Source: Hyphomonas sp. Mor2
GTDB lineage: Bacteria; Pseudomonadota; Alphaproteobacteria; Caulobacterales; Hyphomonadaceae
Length of the DNA stretch: 64,000 bases
Assembly: GCF_001854405.1 (NCBI RefSeq)
Contig: NZ_CP017718.1
Location: 372,001-436,000 of the forward strand
Direction of reading: 5' to 3'
The notes under the pieces were generated by a model. It did not search any database, was not told where the DNA came from, and worked only from the letters and a program-made list of their open reading frames with translations. Positions 16,401-43,422 of the stretch are shown here, in pieces; the stretch's first letter is position 1; each line of letters begins with the position of its first letter. A program made the translations under genes and the position numbers.

Positions 16401-16835
16401 ATGACGCACCGCATTCTGATCGTGAACTCTCCCTACTATGCCCACATCTCGGAAGAGCTGGAAAAGGGGGCGCGTGAAGCGCTGGATGCATCCGAAGAGC
16501 CCTGCGAGATCGAAACCATCATGGTGCCCGGGGCGTTTGAAGTCCCTGGCGCGATCGCCATGGCCGCCGACAGCGCAAAGTATGACGGCTATATCGCCTT
16601 GGGGTGCGTCATTCGCGGGGAGACCACGCATTATGATTATGTCTGCGGCGAGAGCGCCAAAGGCTTGATGTTTCTGACCACGGACCGCCGACTGGCGATC
16701 GGCTACGGCATCCTGACTGTGGAAAACGAGGCGCAGGCGCTGGCGCGCGCGGAACGGTCACAGAAGAATAAAGGCCGGGATGCAGCCATTGCCTGTCTGG
16801 AGATGCTGAAACTGCGAAAGAAGTTCGTTCGGTAA
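16401..16835 (+). CDS. ribH: 6,7-dimethyl-8-ribityllumazine synthase
   Basis: A 144-residue lumazine synthase that joins the RibB product with the pyrimidine intermediate. Family motifs are [29 protein letters not shown] and [18 protein letters not shown]. Length is typical. It starts 5 bp after ribBA. In related genomes nusB follows directly; here about 500 bp holding a GIY-YIG gene separate them. Confidence 0.96.
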
Positions 16836-16850
16836 GCTTCGCACCGCTGC

Positions 16851-16875
16851 ATCCTTCGACTTCGCTCAGGATGAG
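16851..16875 (+). repeat. 25-bp repeat, left copy flanking the GIY-YIG gene
   Basis: The sequence begins ATCCTTCGACTTCGC and ends TCAGGATGAG. It is the exact reverse complement of 17239-17263 and matches, base for base, the reverse complement of 41053-41077. ATCCT and AGGAT inside it can pair as a short stem. It begins 15 bp after the ribH stop. Similar repeats recur between genes in many alphaproteobacterial genomes. Confidence 0.9.
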
Positions 16876-16891
16876 CTGTACAGTCGCTGTG

Positions 16892-17248
16892 ATGCAGTTT
16901 TTTGTTTACATCCTGCGCTGCGCGAATGGCGCCTACTATGTCGGTAGCCACCGCGGGGATGACGTGATGGATCGTGTAAATCAGCATAATGAATGGCGCG
17001 ACCCCAAGGCCTATACCTACAAACGTCGTCCAGTTGAGCTTGTATGGAGCGAGGTCTTTGAAGATCCGAACGATATGATCGATGCAGAGCGTCGCCTTAA
17101 AGGTTGGAGCCGCGCTAAGAAGGAAGCCTATATCAAGGGTGATCTATCCAAACTTAAATCCCTTGCCAAATCGAGAACCGCACCACCGGATCCCGCCAAG
17201 AGCAAATTCTACAAGCTAACGGGCACCAAACGCTCACGCTCATCCTGA
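16892..17248 (+). CDS. GIY-YIG nuclease-family protein
   Basis: A 118-residue single-domain GIY-YIG protein. VYI (residues 5-7) and YVG (16-18) are the name motif; R28, H32 and E66 (in DAERRLKGWSRAKKEAYI) are the expected catalytic and metal residues, so it looks active. The basic tail ends RSRSS. The ATG at 16892 is preferred over the in-frame ATG at 16871 because the domain starts there and the earlier ATG lies in the repeat. The stop codon lies within the right-hand repeat. It interrupts the ribH-nusB order. The function of such small UPF0213-like nucleases is unknown. Confidence 0.85.
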   Translation: MQFFVYILRCANGAYYVGSHRGDDVMDRVNQHNEWRDPKAYTYKRRPVELVWSEVFEDPNDMIDAERRLKGWSRAKKEAYIKGDLSKLKSLAKSRTAPPDPAKSKFYKLTGTKRSRSS

Positions 17249-17263
17249 GCGAAGTCGAAGGAT
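17239..17263 (-). repeat. 25-bp repeat, right copy flanking the GIY-YIG gene
   Basis: A perfect inverted copy of 16851-16875. It overlaps the last codons and the TGA of the GIY-YIG gene, so gene and repeat form one unit of about 413 bp. No target-site duplication is obvious beside the two copies. Confidence 0.9.
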
Positions 17264-17345
17264 TAGCGAGCCCAAACCCAGTTTTCACACCCCGCACGAC
17301 ACAAAGGGAATAGCTTTTTCGGCGCGCCAATGGCAAGGACGCGCG

Positions 17346-17822
17346 ATGAGCGAACAGAAACTCCCATTTGAAGTCATTCGGGCCCGCCGAGCTGGCGCCC
17401 GGCTGGCGGCTGTTCAGGCCCTGTATCAAATGGAGCAGACCGGTCAGAGCGGCAAGTCAGCCATTCGCGACCTGATGGACGACCGTCTCGGATTGGGTCC
17501 GGACGAGGATCCGGTGGAAGAGGCGGATCCAGATCTGTTCAAATCGATCGTCAACGCCACGATCGAACACCAGAGCACAGTCGATAAAGCCATTCTGGCG
17601 CGCCTGTCCAAAGGCTGGAAACTCTCTCGCCTGGACTCGACCACGCGCTCGATCCTGCGTGCGGCGACGGCGGAACTGGTGGCGCACCAGGAATTGTCAC
17701 GTCGTATTCTACTCGATGAATATGTCTCTCTGGCGCACGATTTCTTCGACAAGACGGAAGCGAATTTCGTTAATGCCGTGCTCGACAATGTCTCAAAAGA
17801 CTTGCGGCCCGAAGAGGCTTAG
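17346..17822 (+). CDS. nusB: transcription antitermination factor NusB
   Basis: A 158-residue all-helical NusB, which with NusE (S10) binds boxA RNA for rRNA antitermination. Motifs are RRAGARLAAVQALYQMEQTG at the N-terminus, LSRLDSTTRSILRAATAEL in the middle and LLDEYVSLAHDFFDKTEANFVNAVLDN near the end. It is separated from ribH by the GIY-YIG unit and so must use its own promoter between 17264 and 17345. thiL follows 25 bp downstream. Confidence 0.96.
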   Translation: MSEQKLPFEVIRARRAGARLAAVQALYQMEQTGQSGKSAIRDLMDDRLGLGPDEDPVEEADPDLFKSIVNATIEHQSTVDKAILARLSKGWKLSRLDSTTRSILRAATAELVAHQELSRRILLDEYVSLAHDFFDKTEANFVNAVLDNVSKDLRPEEA

Positions 17823-38875: not shown

Positions 38876-40774
38876 ATGATATCATCGCTTTTGATTGCCA
38901 ATCGTGGCGAGATCGCCTGCCGCATCCTGCGCTCCTGTCGGGCGCTCGGCATACGAGGCATCGCGGTCTATTCCGATGCTGACGCGCGGGCGAAACATGT
39001 GCGCGAAGCCGATGAGGCGGTGTGGATAGGCGCTTCTGCGGCGACGGAAAGCTATCTCGATGCGGACCGTATCATTGCGGCCGCAAAAGCGGTCGGGGCA
39101 GAGGCCATTCACCCGGGCTATGGGTTCCTGTCGGAAAACGCTGCCTTCGCGCGCGCCGTTGAACAGGCAGGATTGATCTGGGTCGGTCCAAAAGCCGATA
39201 CGATCGAGGCCATGGGCCTGAAAGATCGCGCCAAGGCGATCGCGGAAGAGGCGGGCGTGCCGGTCCTGCCAGGGTATCGCGGCGAGGCTCAGGATGCCAA
39301 AACGCTGACCAAGGAAGCCGATCAGATCGGCTACCCGCTCCTGATCAAGGCGGTTGCTGGCGGCGGCGGGCGCGGCATCCGCCTGGTCGCAAAGGCGAAG
39401 GATCTCGCGGGCGAACTGGAGAGCGCGGTGCGGGAAGCCGAAGCGGCCTTTGGCGATGGCCGCGTGATGCTGGAGAAACTGGTCGAACAACCGCGACATA
39501 TCGAGGTCCAGGTCTTCGGCGACAGCCATGGCAGTGCGGTCCACTTGTTCGAGCGCGATTGCTCGCTGCAACGCCGCCGTCAGAAAGTGATCGAGGAAGC
39601 CCCGGCGCCCGGCATGCCGGAAAAGGTTCGCAAGGCGATGTGCGATTCGGCGGTCAAGCTGGCCAAGTCTGTCGGCTATGAAGGCGCTGGTACGGTCGAG
39701 TTCATTGTCGATGGCGCGAAGCCTCTGGCGCTCGATACGTTCTGGTTCCTGGAAATGAATACCCGCCTTCAGGTCGAGCATCCGGTGACAGAGATGGTCA
39801 CCGGCACCGATCTGGTCGAATGGCAATTGCGTGTGGCAAGCGGCGAGAAACTGCCAGCCAAGCAAAAGGACATCAAACTCCTCGGCCACGCAATTGAAGC
39901 GCGGATCTGCGCCGAAGACCCAGCCGATGACTTCCGTCCCGGCGCCGGCCTGATCGAGGAGTTCGGCATGCTGGCCGATCCCGAGGCCGACTGGTTACGC
40001 TGGGAGGCGGGATTCGAGAGCGGCGACCGGGTTCCGGCCGTCTATGACTCGATGATCGCCAAACTGGTCGTGTGGGGCGAGGACCGCGAACAGGCCAATG
40101 ACCATCTGATCGATACGCTGGCGCATCTGCAGCTGGTCGGCGTGCCCGGCAATATCGGCTTCCTGCGTCGCTGCGCGATGGCGGACGCTTTCATCGATGG
40201 GACGCATCACGTGAACTGGATTGCAGAGCAGGGCGACACGCTGAGCCAGGCGCCCGACGCGCATCAGCATGCCTCGGTCATGGCGGCGTCTGATATCCTG
40301 CTCGGCGAAGATGGCGCCGACCCGTGGACCGTTCGCGATGGCTGGCGACTGAACGCCGACGCGCAGACCCGGGTGGCCGTGGCGGTTGGCGAAGATGCCG
40401 ACTGGTTCGATCCGTCCGAGCATGAGGTCGCGGACGACATCTCCATGCCCCTGGTCACAGACCTGTCCCCGCGCCGGTTTGCGGTGACGACGGGCGGCGA
40501 CAGCGTGCTCGTCGAAGTCCCGGACTTTGAAGCTGAAGCCGAGGCGCTGGCCGGCGGCGACGCCGTCAAGGCGCCGATGCCCGGCAAGGTCATCGCGGTC
40601 AATGTGGGCGTCGGCGACACGGTCGAAAAAGGCCAAACCGTCGCCGTCATGGAAGCGATGAAAATGGAACACTCGCTGACCGCGCCGCGCGATGGCGTGG
40701 TCGAAGCGGTCGGGGTTGCGGTCGGCGCGCAGGTGCCTGAGGGGGAGATTCTGGTGGCATTGGCGGAGGCGTAG
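38876..40774 (+). CDS. mccA: methylcrotonoyl-CoA carboxylase alpha (biotin) subunit
   Basis: A 632-residue biotin carboxylase with its own biotin carrier domain. Biotin carboxylase (about 1-445): LLIANRGEIACRI, AIHPGYGFLSENAAFA, GGGGRGIRLV, MNTRLQVEHPVTEMVTG. The C-terminal biotinyl domain (about 560-632) has biotin Lys K596 in EAMKMEHSL. Together with MccB it carboxylates 3-methylcrotonyl-CoA. Assignment to MCC rather than propionyl-CoA carboxylase rests on mccB and liuC nearby. Confidence 0.92.
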   Translation: MISSLLIANRGEIACRILRSCRALGIRGIAVYSDADARAKHVREADEAVWIGASAATESYLDADRIIAAAKAVGAEAIHPGYGFLSENAAFARAVEQAGLIWVGPKADTIEAMGLKDRAKAIAEEAGVPVLPGYRGEAQDAKTLTKEADQIGYPLLIKAVAGGGGRGIRLVAKAKDLAGELESAVREAEAAFGDGRVMLEKLVEQPRHIEVQVFGDSHGSAVHLFERDCSLQRRRQKVIEEAPAPGMPEKVRKAMCDSAVKLAKSVGYEGAGTVEFIVDGAKPLALDTFWFLEMNTRLQVEHPVTEMVTGTDLVEWQLRVASGEKLPAKQKDIKLLGHAIEARICAEDPADDFRPGAGLIEEFGMLADPEADWLRWEAGFESGDRVPAVYDSMIAKLVVWGEDREQANDHLIDTLAHLQLVGVPGNIGFLRRCAMADAFIDGTHHVNWIAEQGDTLSQAPDAHQHASVMAASDILLGEDGADPWTVRDGWRLNADAQTRVAVAVGEDADWFDPSEHEVADDISMPLVTDLSPRRFAVTTGGDSVLVEVPDFEAEAEALAGGDAVKAPMPGKVIAVNVGVGDTVEKGQTVAVMEAMKMEHSLTAPRDGVVEAVGVAVGAQVPEGEILVALAEA

Positions 40775-41052
40775 GGGGGAAGTTCCTGGAAGCGGACAGA
40801 AGCTGAAACCTGGCTAACGTCCGCTTTGGGTCAGGAGAATCCGCTCAGCTTCGACCGCATCCTACTTCCGGCGCTCTGCCCAGCCTGGTCTGGGCACGCT
40901 CTGCCCGACTTGATCGGGCAGCCCATCACCCGCACGTGCCGTGAAGATCGGGAGCGAAAACACCTCTCCCGACCTCAGCTGCCAGATCTCGTGCTGGGCC
41001 CCACGGACAAGCCCGTGGGGAGCGCTTGAAGGGGGCCTCAGGTCTTCAGGCC

Positions 41053-41077
41053 CTCATCCTGAGCGAAGTCGAAGGAT
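41053..41077 (-). repeat. 25-bp repeat, third copy
   Basis: It is identical base for base to the right-hand repeat of the GIY-YIG unit (17239-17263), 24 kb away. It pairs with an inverted, slightly diverged copy at 41118-41142; only 40 bp without a gene lie between them. Confidence 0.9.
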
Positions 41078-41117
41078 AAAGGGCCGGGCTTCCGGGCGTT
41101 TGCCTCAAGCCCGCCTC

Positions 41118-41142
41118 GTCCTTCGACTGCGCTCAGGATGAG
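41118..41142 (+). repeat. 25-bp repeat, fourth copy (diverged)
   Basis: It matches the left repeat 16851-16875 except at two positions (first base G for A, and CTGCG for CTTCG). It is inverted relative to 41053-41077, so the two form a doublet that could fold as a long hairpin. Confidence 0.85.
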
Positions 41143-41310
41143 GCTTCAAGGGGGTATCTCGAGCTTTACGTCCCCTGCGACGCCGACAGGAGACATTGGC
41201 CTTACGTCCGCGTTTGCTCACTTTGCCCACCTCTTCGTATACCCCCCCTGAATCCCCCCAATCCCACCCCCTAAATCCGACCGCGTTCGCTGCCGCTTAC
41301 AGTCCCCGGC

Positions 41311-41754
41311 ATGGCGAACAGCACTCCCAAACATAGATTTCGATGGACCGCGCAGGTGCGGCGGGCGGCGGTGTTGTTGTCGGCTTGCGGCTATTCGGAT
41401 CGCAAGATTGGCGACTGTCTCGGCTGTCATGGAGGCACGATCGGGCGGCGGCTGGGGCTGCGGGCCGAGCGGCCGCAGCTCAGCCCGCAAGAGCTGATTG
41501 AGCTGTTTGAGCGCTATGATGCGCAGCGCAATCTGGAAGAGGTCCTCACCGCCGCCAGCGGGACGACCGAGCAGGCCCGCCTGCGGACCAGTTTGCGGGT
41601 GCGGGGCCGTCCGCCCGGCCCGCGCGCCGCTTATCGTCCGCACGCTCCGCACTCCCCACAAGACCCGAACAAGGAGGCGCTCAGTGATGAGCAATTACGC
41701 CGCGAAGTGGAAGCCCTGGTGGGACACGCAATTGAGGTCCGCAAAGGCCCTTGA
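41311..41754 (+). CDS. GTA gp1-like small terminase candidate
   Basis: A 147-residue protein directly upstream of, and overlapping by 68 bp, the large terminase gene. The N-terminal part, AAVLLSACGYSDRKIGDCLGCHGGTIGRRLGL, has a helix-turn-helix pattern. Then come a helical segment (ELIELFERYDAQRNLEEVL) and a basic Pro-rich stretch. Position and DNA-binding look match gp1 of RcGTA, reported as its small terminase subunit. Sequence identity to gp1 was not recognised directly, so the call rests mainly on context. Confidence 0.55.
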   Translation: MANSTPKHRFRWTAQVRRAAVLLSACGYSDRKIGDCLGCHGGTIGRRLGLRAERPQLSPQELIELFERYDAQRNLEEVLTAASGTTEQARLRTSLRVRGRPPGPRAAYRPHAPHSPQDPNKEALSDEQLRREVEALVGHAIEVRKGP

Positions 41755-42997
41755 TGGGGCGCAGTGCTGGGACTTGTATCGCTTTCCATTTCTGCATCTG
41801 GCGCGCCAGGCGCAGCGCCCGCCGCAAGGGACCTGGCGAACCTGGTTGTTCATTGGCGGACGCGGGGCGGGCAAGACGCGAGCCGGGGCGGAATGGACGC
41901 GTTATGCAGCCTTGCGCGGGGGATGTCAGCGCATCGCCTTGATTGGTCCGACCTTGAGCGATGCCCGCGAAGTGATTATTGAAGGCCCGTCAGGATTACG
42001 ACAGATCGAGCCGATCGCTCACCTGCGCCCGCGCTATAGTGTCTCCCGGCGGCGCCTGGAATGGCCGAACGGGGCGGTGGGTCTGGTCTTCTCGGCTGAG
42101 GACCCGGAGAGTTTGCGCGGGCCGCAATTTGATGCCGCCTGGTGCGACGAGATCGGGGTCTGGGCGTATGGCGAAGCCGCTTGGAACAACCTGCAATTCG
42201 GCTTGCGGCTGGGCGAGTCGCCGCGCAGTGTCGCGACCACGACGCCGCGTCCGGTGCAACTGGTCAAGCGGTTGATGGCCGGGGAGGCGGTGGTGACGCA
42301 CAGCTCGACCCGCGACAATGCCGACCAGCTCGCAGACGGGTTCCTGGACGCGATGGAAGCGGCCTATGCGGGGACGGCCCTGGCGCGTCAGGAACTGTTC
42401 GGCGAATTGCTCGAAGACGTGGACGGCGCGCTTTGGAAGCGCGCGCATATCGAGGACAATCGCGTCGCCGCTCCGCCTGCGGAATTTGAGGATCTGATCG
42501 TCGCGATCGATCCCCCGACGACCAGCCATCGCGGCTCTGACGCCTGCGGAATTGTCGCTGCCGGGATCAGCACACCGCCGGGGTTTCGCGAGCACGGGTT
42601 CATTCTTGCCGATGCGACCGCGCAGGGCCTGACGCCCTCGGACTGGGCCGCGCGGGCCGTCAGTCTGGCACGGAATTGCGGTGCCTCGAGGATTGTCGCG
42701 GAGTCCAATCAGGGCGGCGACATGTTGCGCACCGTGTTTGACAGCGTGTCCTGCGATCTGCCCGTGGACCTGGTGCATGCCCGGCTTGGCAAACGGGCGC
42801 GCGCGGTGCCGGTGGCGGCGCTCTACCAACAAAACCGGATCTCCCATGTCGGCGCGTTTCCGGCGCTGGAAGACGAAATGTGTCGGTTTGGCACCGAAGG
42901 CTTCATCGGGTCACCGGACCGCGTGGACGCGCTGGTCTGGGCGATCAGCGCCTTGATGTTGAGACAGGGCGGGACCCCGCGCGTTCGGCGGCTTTAA
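41687..42997 (+). CDS. gene transfer agent large terminase (gp2)
   Basis: A 436-residue packaging ATPase/nuclease of the RcGTA type. Walker A is GGRGAGKT at residues 57-64 in WLFIGGRGAGKTRAGAEW. A Walker B-like FDAAWCDE follows, and the C-terminal RNase H-like nuclease begins at LIVAIDPP. Length is complete and no frameshift is seen. ATG 41687 has AGGAG 10 bases upstream. The usual next gene, portal gp3, is displaced: two antisense genes follow and the portal survives only as a fragment at 44528. It is thus an intact-looking gene in a broken cluster. Confidence 0.9.
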   Translation: MSNYAAKWKPWWDTQLRSAKALDGAQCWDLYRFPFLHLARQAQRPPQGTWRTWLFIGGRGAGKTRAGAEWTRYAALRGGCQRIALIGPTLSDAREVIIEGPSGLRQIEPIAHLRPRYSVSRRRLEWPNGAVGLVFSAEDPESLRGPQFDAAWCDEIGVWAYGEAAWNNLQFGLRLGESPRSVATTTPRPVQLVKRLMAGEAVVTHSSTRDNADQLADGFLDAMEAAYAGTALARQELFGELLEDVDGALWKRAHIEDNRVAAPPAEFEDLIVAIDPPTTSHRGSDACGIVAAGISTPPGFREHGFILADATAQGLTPSDWAARAVSLARNCGASRIVAESNQGGDMLRTVFDSVSCDLPVDLVHARLGKRARAVPVAALYQQNRISHVGAFPALEDEMCRFGTEGFIGSPDRVDALVWAISALMLRQGGTPRVRRL

Positions 42998-43422
42998 CGC
43001 CCGGTCCGAAAGGCCTTGCGGCCGAGATACTTGTTCTTGGCCGGGGTGGGGGCTTCAGGGGCTGCTGCTGCGGCATCTTCTGTCGGCTTTGGGGCAACCT
43101 CTCCGGCCAGCACCTTGCGCACATGCGAGAGGGCGGAGCTGCCTGTATTCACCTCGATTTCGGCGGCGGTTTTGTCCAGGCGCCGGGCCAGTAGCTTCAC
43201 ATGATAAGGCGTGAGACTGTCGAGGGTTTTTTCGAACATGTCCTCGCCGACGGTGCGCTTTAACTCCAGCAGGTCTTCGCGGGTCAGGCCGGCGGCGATG
43301 ATCTGCTTTCGCGCCAGCTTGATCGCTGCGGCTGAGAGGTCAGAATCCTTGACGCGTGGAAACAAATTCTCATGAGCGAGGATCGCTGAGAGCGCTGCGC
43401 GTCCGTCTGGGATGAGGGCCAT
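42994..43422 (-). CDS. unknown protein paired with ParA
   Basis: A 142-residue protein starting 4 bp after the ParA stop, hence in one operon with it. The first 100 residues are predicted helical and mixed in charge (RVKDSDLSAAAIKLARKQII, TREDLLELKRTVGEDMFEK, YHVKLLARRLDKTAAEIE). A low-complexity Ala/Pro/Glu linker follows, then a basic end, NKYLGRKAFRTGR. No family was recognised. By analogy with ParA-adaptor pairs such as McdA/McdB it may link the ATPase to a cargo (inference). Its stop overlaps that of the terminase by 4 bp. Confidence 0.7.
   Translation of the reverse strand: MALIPDGRAALSAILAHENLFPRVKDSDLSAAAIKLARKQIIAAGLTREDLLELKRTVGEDMFEKTLDSLTPYHVKLLARRLDKTAAEIEVNTGSSALSHVRKVLAGEVAPKPTEDAAAAAPEAPTPAKNKYLGRKAFRTGR

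Follow-up and report, generated by a model that had tools for sequence, protein, structure and literature searches.

Hairpin repeats and single-domain GIY-YIG genes in Hyphomonas and other bacteria: candidate cognate enzymes for two classes of repeat

Results

A GIY-YIG gene between inverted repeats separates ribH and nusB

We analyzed a window of 64,000 nucleotides from Hyphomonas sp. Mor2, in which a compact GIY-YIG gene, bounded by two inverted copies of a repeat, lies between genes that we name ribH and nusB by resemblance (Table 1). The left repeat reads ATCCTTCGACTTCGCTCAGGATGAGC, and the right one is its exact reverse complement, over 26 bp rather than the 25 bp of the original prediction; the unit (L035 among the loci compared below) has an inverted-repeat score of 26. 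The reported overlap between the repeat and the end of the gene was also found: the open reading frame begins with an ATG at 16892, with an alternative in-frame start open at 16871, and its TGA (17246-17248) falls within the right repeat. A scan of 16750-17400 revealed one terminator-like site, away from the repeats, and no promoter-like site.

Table 1. Coordinates of the unit, its neighbors and a gene-free doublet in the window
Feature	Position	Strand	Basis or location
ribH, left neighbor of unit	16401..16835	+	ORF; orthologues by tblastn in 28 loci
Left 26-bp repeat copy	16851..16876	-	TGAG-loop-TCGAA on minus strand
Family-1 GIY-YIG gene, 118 aa	16892..17248	+	PF01541, alignments A1/A3, AlphaFold2 model, fold match
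Right 26-bp repeat copy, inverted relative to left	17238..17263	+	sequence
nusB, right neighbor of unit	17346..17822	+	ORF; ribH-nusB loci compared
Gene-free doublet, first copy, core 20 bp	41057..41076	+	G000:C1:413057-413076
Gene-free doublet, second copy, one substitution, core 20 bp	41119..41138	-	G000:C1:413119-413138
Dispersed repeat (~250-360 bp) carrying doublet	40816..41199		G000:C1:412816-413199

The unit interrupts a gene pair that is normally adjacent, as had been proposed. A search of the genus found nusB in 28 of 29 genomes (counting Mor2 itself), which provided the readable ribH-nusB loci, and in 26 of these 28 nusB follows the ribH stop within 95 bases, with no unit. The unit is present at this site only in Mor2 and in one other genome, G016; one genome with an empty site (G008) encodes an identical NusB protein. 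The insertion point, judged by eye, lies ~10-20 bp from the ribH stop, and no clear target duplication was seen when filled and empty sites were compared by eye. The TGAG/TCGAA motif of the repeats (see below) was absent beside nusB from all 26 empty loci. Thus, the repeats and the gene appear jointly at the nusB locus.

The protein is a predicted single-domain GIY-YIG nuclease of the UPF0213 type

The window protein matches the Pfam GIY-YIG model (PF01541) at 7.4e-15 and no other Pfam domain. The catalytic residues of GIY-YIG nucleases are Tyr, Tyr, Arg, His and Glu, and these occupy invariant columns (Y6, Y16, R28, H32 and E66 in A3 numbering) in alignments of 24 and 23 proteins, bearing out the claim that the gene retains its catalytic residues. 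In the AlphaFold2 model (mean pLDDT 81.9), confidence is good up to about residue 90 and low in the tail, residues 103-118. A profile matched the solved UPF0213 structures 1zg2 (2.2e-16) and 1ywl (8.6e-14), and the same two ranked first and second in Foldseek, followed by Slx1 structures at ranks 3-12. E ≤ 0.001 was reached by the first rank alone, and the query TM-scores were 0.42-0.53. Some of the Slx1 entries among these fold matches are titled for branched-DNA processing; a branch-selective nuclease would suit hairpin repeats.

The family to which this protein belongs (family 1) is patchily distributed, with matches at E ≤ 1e-8 in 27 of 101 genomes (counting Mor2), and the gene is present in one or two copies per genome. 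No NCBIfam model matched the three family members tested. We considered that the gene might be cargo of plasmids or phages, or a defense gene. Plasmid matches at E ≤ 1e-10 were found in 4 of 72,556 records, phage matches at E ≤ 1e-5 in 7 of 50,697 records, none covering 80%, and PADLOC gave no match for two proteins. There are four GIY-YIG matches in the Mor2 genome.

Inverted hairpins flank most family-1 genes

We scored inverted repeats between the upstream and downstream sequences of 30 loci fetched from the 101-genome set, and found scores from 6 to 48, with 25 of the 30 loci above the highest shuffled score, 13. High scores also arise when the flanks of one locus are paired with those of another (median 10, 95th percentile 24), since the loci have repeats in common. 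A profile search of named genomes (with one conserved peptide pattern) confirmed at least 526 of at least 590 stretches, and the best 80 of these were used; they come mainly from Alphaproteobacteria and also include Variovorax, Methylobacter, Flavobacterium, Empedobacter and Mariniflexile. Inverted repeats scoring at least 14 were present at 59 of these best 80 loci, compared to 10 of 3087 same-size control windows from the same loci, and repeats scoring at least 20 at 36 of the best 80, compared to 1 of 3087. Homologues without such flanking repeats are therefore the minority among the best 80.

Similarly, at 74 of the best 80 named loci a TGAG/TCGAA hairpin lies no more than 200 bp from the gene (45 on both sides), as it does at 24 of 28 loci of relatives (19 on both sides). 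Since each locus has two sides, it is fairer to compare sides than loci with the 200-bp control pieces; the counts are then 43 of 56 compared to 1 of 163 for the relatives, and 119 of 160 compared to 21 of 1589 for the best 80. The 28 relatives' loci are the 30 fetched loci minus L060, moved to the second family described below, and L061, a distant copy with a stop. L114 and L139 duplicate L063 and L064, the sets of 80 and 28 overlapping by two, and the pairing, orientation and subtype-tree analyses cover 106 of the 108 family-1 loci. With these counts, the REP/RAYT-like association of the GIY-YIG gene with repeats, which the original prediction had suggested from a single locus, is strongly supported.

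Two sets of control loci were negative. At 29 loci of another GIY-YIG family (L004 type; 30 loci with one short flank dropped, among at least 38 matches), we found the TGAG motif at 0, an inverted repeat at 0 and the CGTC motif described below at 2; at 26 nusB loci (two filled sites excluded), the corresponding counts were 0, 0 and 1. Chance and terminator readings of the repeats are opposed by these loci as well as by the control windows and control pieces.

Where family-1 loci have units on both sides, these are inverted in 62 of 72 cases. The inversion has one sense at 43 of these loci and the opposite sense at 19, with the window gene among the 19.

The inner stems of the repeats vary with compensation

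The repeats vary in their letters and mostly share a common form, which consists of a stem, TGAG, a loop or an inner hairpin, TCGAA and the other arm of the stem; the window repeat reads CTCATCC-TGAG-CGAAG-TCGAA-GGAT. We examined pairing in 154 distinct units, chosen regardless of pairing, with one arm slid by one base as the control. At the three innermost positions of the stem, 87%, 90% and 87% of units are paired (75%, 25% and 20% with the slid arm), and both sides have changed in 10, 29 and 28 units (10, 13 and 16 with the slid arm), so that the inner stem pairs change in compensation. Positions 4 and 5 pair in 59% and 66% (compared to 13% and 25%), and at positions 6-8 pairing in these units was no better than with slid arms.

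Folding of five sequences as single strands gave mixed results. The minimum-energy fold of the window 26-mer as single-stranded DNA is a different, weak hairpin rather than the proposed stem (z = -1.2), and one copy from a named genome (L093) also folds differently from the proposed stem. For longer copies taken from two relatives, the fold is an 11-bp stem (z = -2.5 and -4.2), and a copy from the second family forms a strong hairpin (z = -4.7).

A second GIY-YIG family is paired with CGTC-type hairpins

The same profile found lower-scoring GIY-YIG genes, which we call family 2 and presume to be YhbQ-like. We collected 40 loci, mostly top-ranked, from at least 40 such matches, and the addition of L001 and then L060 gave sets of 41 and 42. 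A quick tree separated 94 family-1 proteins (of 106, the 12 with stops being excluded) from the 42 family-2 proteins, all intact, by one fully supported branch.

Among the matches listed, inverted repeats score at least 14 at 25 of 41 family-2 loci, compared to 0 of 126 control windows, and (C/T)GTC-ATCCCGG...CCGGGAT-CCA, or a variant of it, is the sequence of many of them. A CGTC-type hairpin (TC-stem8-loop3..30-stem8-CCA) occurs within 200 bp at 25 of 42 of these listed loci, or by side at 40 of 84 compared to 10 of 88 control pieces (P = 1e-7). The pairing is specific to each family. The TGAG/TCGAA motif was found at 1 of 42 family-2 loci among the matches listed (1 of 84 sides, compared to 1 of 88 control pieces), and the CGTC type at 1 of 28 loci of family-1 relatives and 7 of the best 80 named loci, which by side is the background level (1 of 56 compared to 9 of 163, and 7 of 160 compared to 110 of 1589). 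The family-2 gene of Mor2 itself (L001, G000:C1:2630450) is flanked on its upstream side only, by two CGTC-type hairpins in inverted orientation.

We also mapped repeat subtype onto a quickly built tree of 106 family-1 proteins, which is based on 101 columns and has 7 of its 103 inner branches starred. Subtype requires 31 changes on this tree, compared to a mean of 51 after shuffling, and none of 200 shuffles was as low, although near-copies help such clustering. The Bradyrhizobium proteins fall in two groups, one with mostly GTG-type loops (L097 and L123 being exceptions) and the other with GAG-type loops only.

Repeat abundance tracks the genes across genomes

We asked how the repeats and genes are distributed in a class-level set of 289 genomes, in which family 1 (every match of at least 82 bits) is present in 31 and family 2 in 82. 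Because our first pattern was narrow, we used a broader one at this level, TCCTGAGN{2,32}TCGAAGGA, which covers one stem only. This TGAG pattern reaches 10 or more copies in 21 genomes, of which 16 have family 1, compared to 15 of the other 268 (odds ratio 54, Fisher P = 6e-14). Likewise, of the 27 genomes with at least three copies of the CGTC pattern, 21 have family 2 (odds ratio 11.5, P = 3e-8). Over all genomes the crossed associations are smaller (CGTC ≥3 with family 1, odds ratio 5.5, P = 7e-4; TGAG ≥10 with family 2, odds ratio 3.1, P = 0.014), and they vanish in genomes that have the other family alone (odds ratios 0.8 for CGTC, in 13 family-1-only genomes, and 0.35 for TGAG). Since related genomes are not independent, we also made the comparison within taxonomic families. 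In 14 of the 18 families with both states, repeats are more numerous in the genomes that have family 1; the reverse holds in 2 families, and the other 2 are tied (P = 0.004 by sign test and 3e-4 by permutation). One of the 31 family-1 genomes, G376, scores higher with the family-2 profile; it lies outside the 16 of 21 and inside one of the 14 upward families.

The expectation that repeats would be scarcer in genomes without the gene stood at class level and within families, with counterexamples closer to home. The first, narrower pattern occurs 20 or more times in each of the 11 genomes of the genus that carry the gene, but it also occurs at least 10 times in 8 of the 18 gene-less ones. Elsewhere in the family we saw no association with this narrow pattern (6 compared to 26 genomes, P = 0.64). 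At class level, no family-1 gene was detected in 5 of the 21 repeat-rich genomes, G204 among them, and the one-stem pattern stays below 10 copies in 15 of the 31 genomes with family 1. These mismatches could reflect gene losses, other stems, missed genes or repeats that persist without the gene; a gene may be missed because the screens scored at most 17 (family 1) and 19 (family 2) candidates per genome. Copy numbers of the TGAG pattern in this set reach 154 per genome. Two genomes stand apart: G204 has 44 TGAG and 27 CGTC copies and matches neither GIY-YIG profile, and G274 has 58 CGTC copies and no match to the family-2 profile, possibly due to a third enzyme clade, to gene loss or to a missed gene.

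Most copies in the Mor2 genome are gene-free doublets

The Mor2 genome (3,628,091 bases in one contig) has 35 sites within two mismatches of the repeat core TCCTTCGACTNCGCTCAGGA, and the reversed control pattern has none. Thus, the repeat exceeds chance. The 35 copies make up 15 gene-free inverted doublets, the gene-flanking pair and three singles. Thirteen of the 15 doublets are in minus-plus order, with starts 52, 61 or 62 bases apart, opposite to the orientation of the gene-flanking pair, and two are in the gene-like plus-minus order with spacings of 58 and 59. The gene-free doublet that had been reported at 41053-41142 of the window is one of these, with one substitution in the second copy (Table 1); Rfam gave no match there (40700-41300).

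The gene-free doublets are embedded in longer conserved surroundings. The dispersed repeat that carries the window doublet is 85% identical to a copy near 946 kb, and copies lie near 206, 413, 946, 2175, 2471, 2805, 2946, 3134 and 3553 kb. At least nine of the 15 doublets are carried by this element, which also has copies in G016 and could be a composite mobile element organized around the paired repeats. When one gene-free doublet was compared with possible empty sites, in the main a single flank aligned. Beyond the window doublet, 41300-43000 resembles, by eye, a phage or gene-transfer-agent terminase region (GGRGAGKTRAGAEW).

Discussion

We consider it quite probable that the unit is a hairpin repeat paired with its own nuclease, which recognizes the hairpin, nicks it at its base and lets the paired repeats move. 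In detail, a single-domain, Slx1-like (UPF0213-type) GIY-YIG gene would travel between two inverted copies of its own repeat. The hairpin would be extruded in single-stranded or cruciform DNA, recognized through its TGAG/TCGAA internal loop and nicked at its base by the nuclease, and the paired repeats would then be copied or transferred into other intergenic regions; the gene between them would move more rarely. We infer each of these enzymatic steps (recognition, cleavage and movement) from the arrangement and distribution of genes and repeats. A sister group of GIY-YIG proteins would do likewise for CGTC-type REPs. Our best reading of the two families together is that two superfamilies of hairpin repeats have their cognate enzymes in single-domain Slx1-like GIY-YIG nucleases. 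It is somewhat better than an even chance, in our view, that the two clades are dedicated enzymes, one for TGAG/TCGAA hairpins and the other for CGTC REPs, and that GIY-YIG was recruited independently of HUH transposases.

The closest parallel is the REP-RAYT system (REPtrons, TnpA-REP). As described in the accessible parts of two reports (PMC2817692, PMC3733652), it likewise has a nuclease gene flanked by two inverted palindromic repeats, further copies of the repeat scattered through the genome, frequently in inverted pairs, and palindromes kept by complementary changes. According to the same parts of these reports, enzyme and repeat trees agree in Stenotrophomonas, to which we liken the agreement in the GIY-YIG system. 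The proposed nuclease might thus act on its repeats much as RAYT is thought to act on REP elements, with unrelated chemistry. In contrast, RAYT proteins have an HUH/tyrosine (Y1) transposase domain, which is absent from the window protein, for which Pfam gives GIY-YIG only, and their repeats have a GTAG (or GTGG) head, in place of which the window repeat has a TGAG/TCGAA internal loop and the family-2 repeats a CGTC-type tag.

The family-2 hairpins resemble CGTC REPs, which in the accessible text of Di Nocera and colleagues (2013, PMC3733652) have a CGTC, TGTC or CCTC tag, a stem of 8-9 that starts with AT, loops of 4-5 nt and a CCA tail, and 'apparently lack a dedicated transposase'. The (C/T)GTC tag, the AT at the start of the stem and the CCA tail are shared, although several family-2 loops are longer than the 4-5 nt published, and family-2 repeats have a GIY-YIG gene alongside where that text reports no dedicated enzyme. 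The window repeat is different, with its TGAG/TCGAA loop and no CCA tail.

The best sequence and fold matches of the window protein, the single-domain prokaryotic Slx1-like proteins (UPF0213/YhbQ/YazA; 1zg2, 1ywl), have the same domain organization. YhbQ and YazA belong to the Slx1 family according to the part of PMC7017083 available, and stand-alone Slx1-like proteins are included in a GIY-YIG survey (PMC1564403), whose available sections leave flanking repeats unmentioned. No repeat partner is mentioned in the accessible portions of either source, whereas family-1 and family-2 genes have one. In literature outside subscription journals and preprints, we found no paper linking GIY-YIG genes to such repeats. 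Neither 'GIY' nor 'nuclease' occurs in the available text of RepRanger (PMC12306157), and the sole co-mention of GIY-YIG with 'extragenic palindrom' or RAYT, in partial text, was a Moraxella pangenome with GIY-YIG in a gene table and a REP paper in its references.

We weighed four other explanations of the association. Seg-family homing endonucleases are, like the window gene, stand-alone GIY-YIG genes inserted between genes, and the likeliest of the alternatives, though an unlikely one, is that a free-standing homing-type gene uses existing repeat doublets as landing sites, the doublets being made and spread by something else. The clade-specific pairing and the repeat-rich genomes without the gene would be expected here too, and the GIY-YIG superfamily does include such free-standing nucleases (Seg family; PMC1564403, in its accessible part, where they cut empty target alleles). 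But the TGAG/TCGAA motif is missing beside nusB at all 26 empty loci, repeat abundance tracks the gene both across and within families, 13 of 15 doublets in Mor2 are oriented opposite to the gene-flanking pair, and the proteins match UPF0213 and Slx1. It is doubtful, too, that the gene encodes a domesticated structure-selective nuclease that clears or trims repeat hairpins in replication, with the nearby repeats as its regulatory hairpins. Such a role would account for the Slx1-like fold and for one or two gene copies per genome, and repeats upstream of the gene and over its stop could set its expression. The patchy presence of the gene (27 of 101 genomes), stop codons in 8 of the best 80 named copies and 5 of the 28 relatives' copies, the varied contexts and the inverted, non-random orientation in 62 of 72 loci argue against housekeeping.

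More remote is an ordinary small insertion sequence, with the repeats as its terminal inverted repeats, the GIY-YIG protein as its transposase and the doublets as deletion derivatives. We regard this as improbable: the inverted ends, the gene-sized unit, the empty site and the two gene-free doublets in gene-like orientation fit it, but we saw by eye no clear target duplication at ribH-nusB, the gene stays at one or two copies while repeats reach 154, the ends are themselves hairpins with compensating inner stems, and 13 of 15 doublets in Mor2 are in the opposite orientation. Finally, some of these genomes are rich in such repeats, which could lie near an unrelated gene by coincidence. This is hardly credible given 59 of the best 80 loci compared to 10 of 3087 control windows, the negative controls (L004-type GIY-YIG and nusB loci) and the clade specificity of the pairing.

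The pairing of repeat and nuclease that we favor provides a candidate enzyme, open to test, for CGTC REPs and for a second class of hairpins. If it is true, the small UPF0213-type GIY-YIG proteins gain a function, and REP-like systems arose with two unrelated nuclease chemistries.

The units lie in varied contexts: blastn found few contexts shared among the 28 relatives' loci, with synteny between distant genomes being invisible to blastn. These contexts, together with the stop codons, look like gain, loss and decay of the gene. One locus, L037, has its left context in common with L040 and its right context in common with L041, which suggests rearrangement at or beside the unit.
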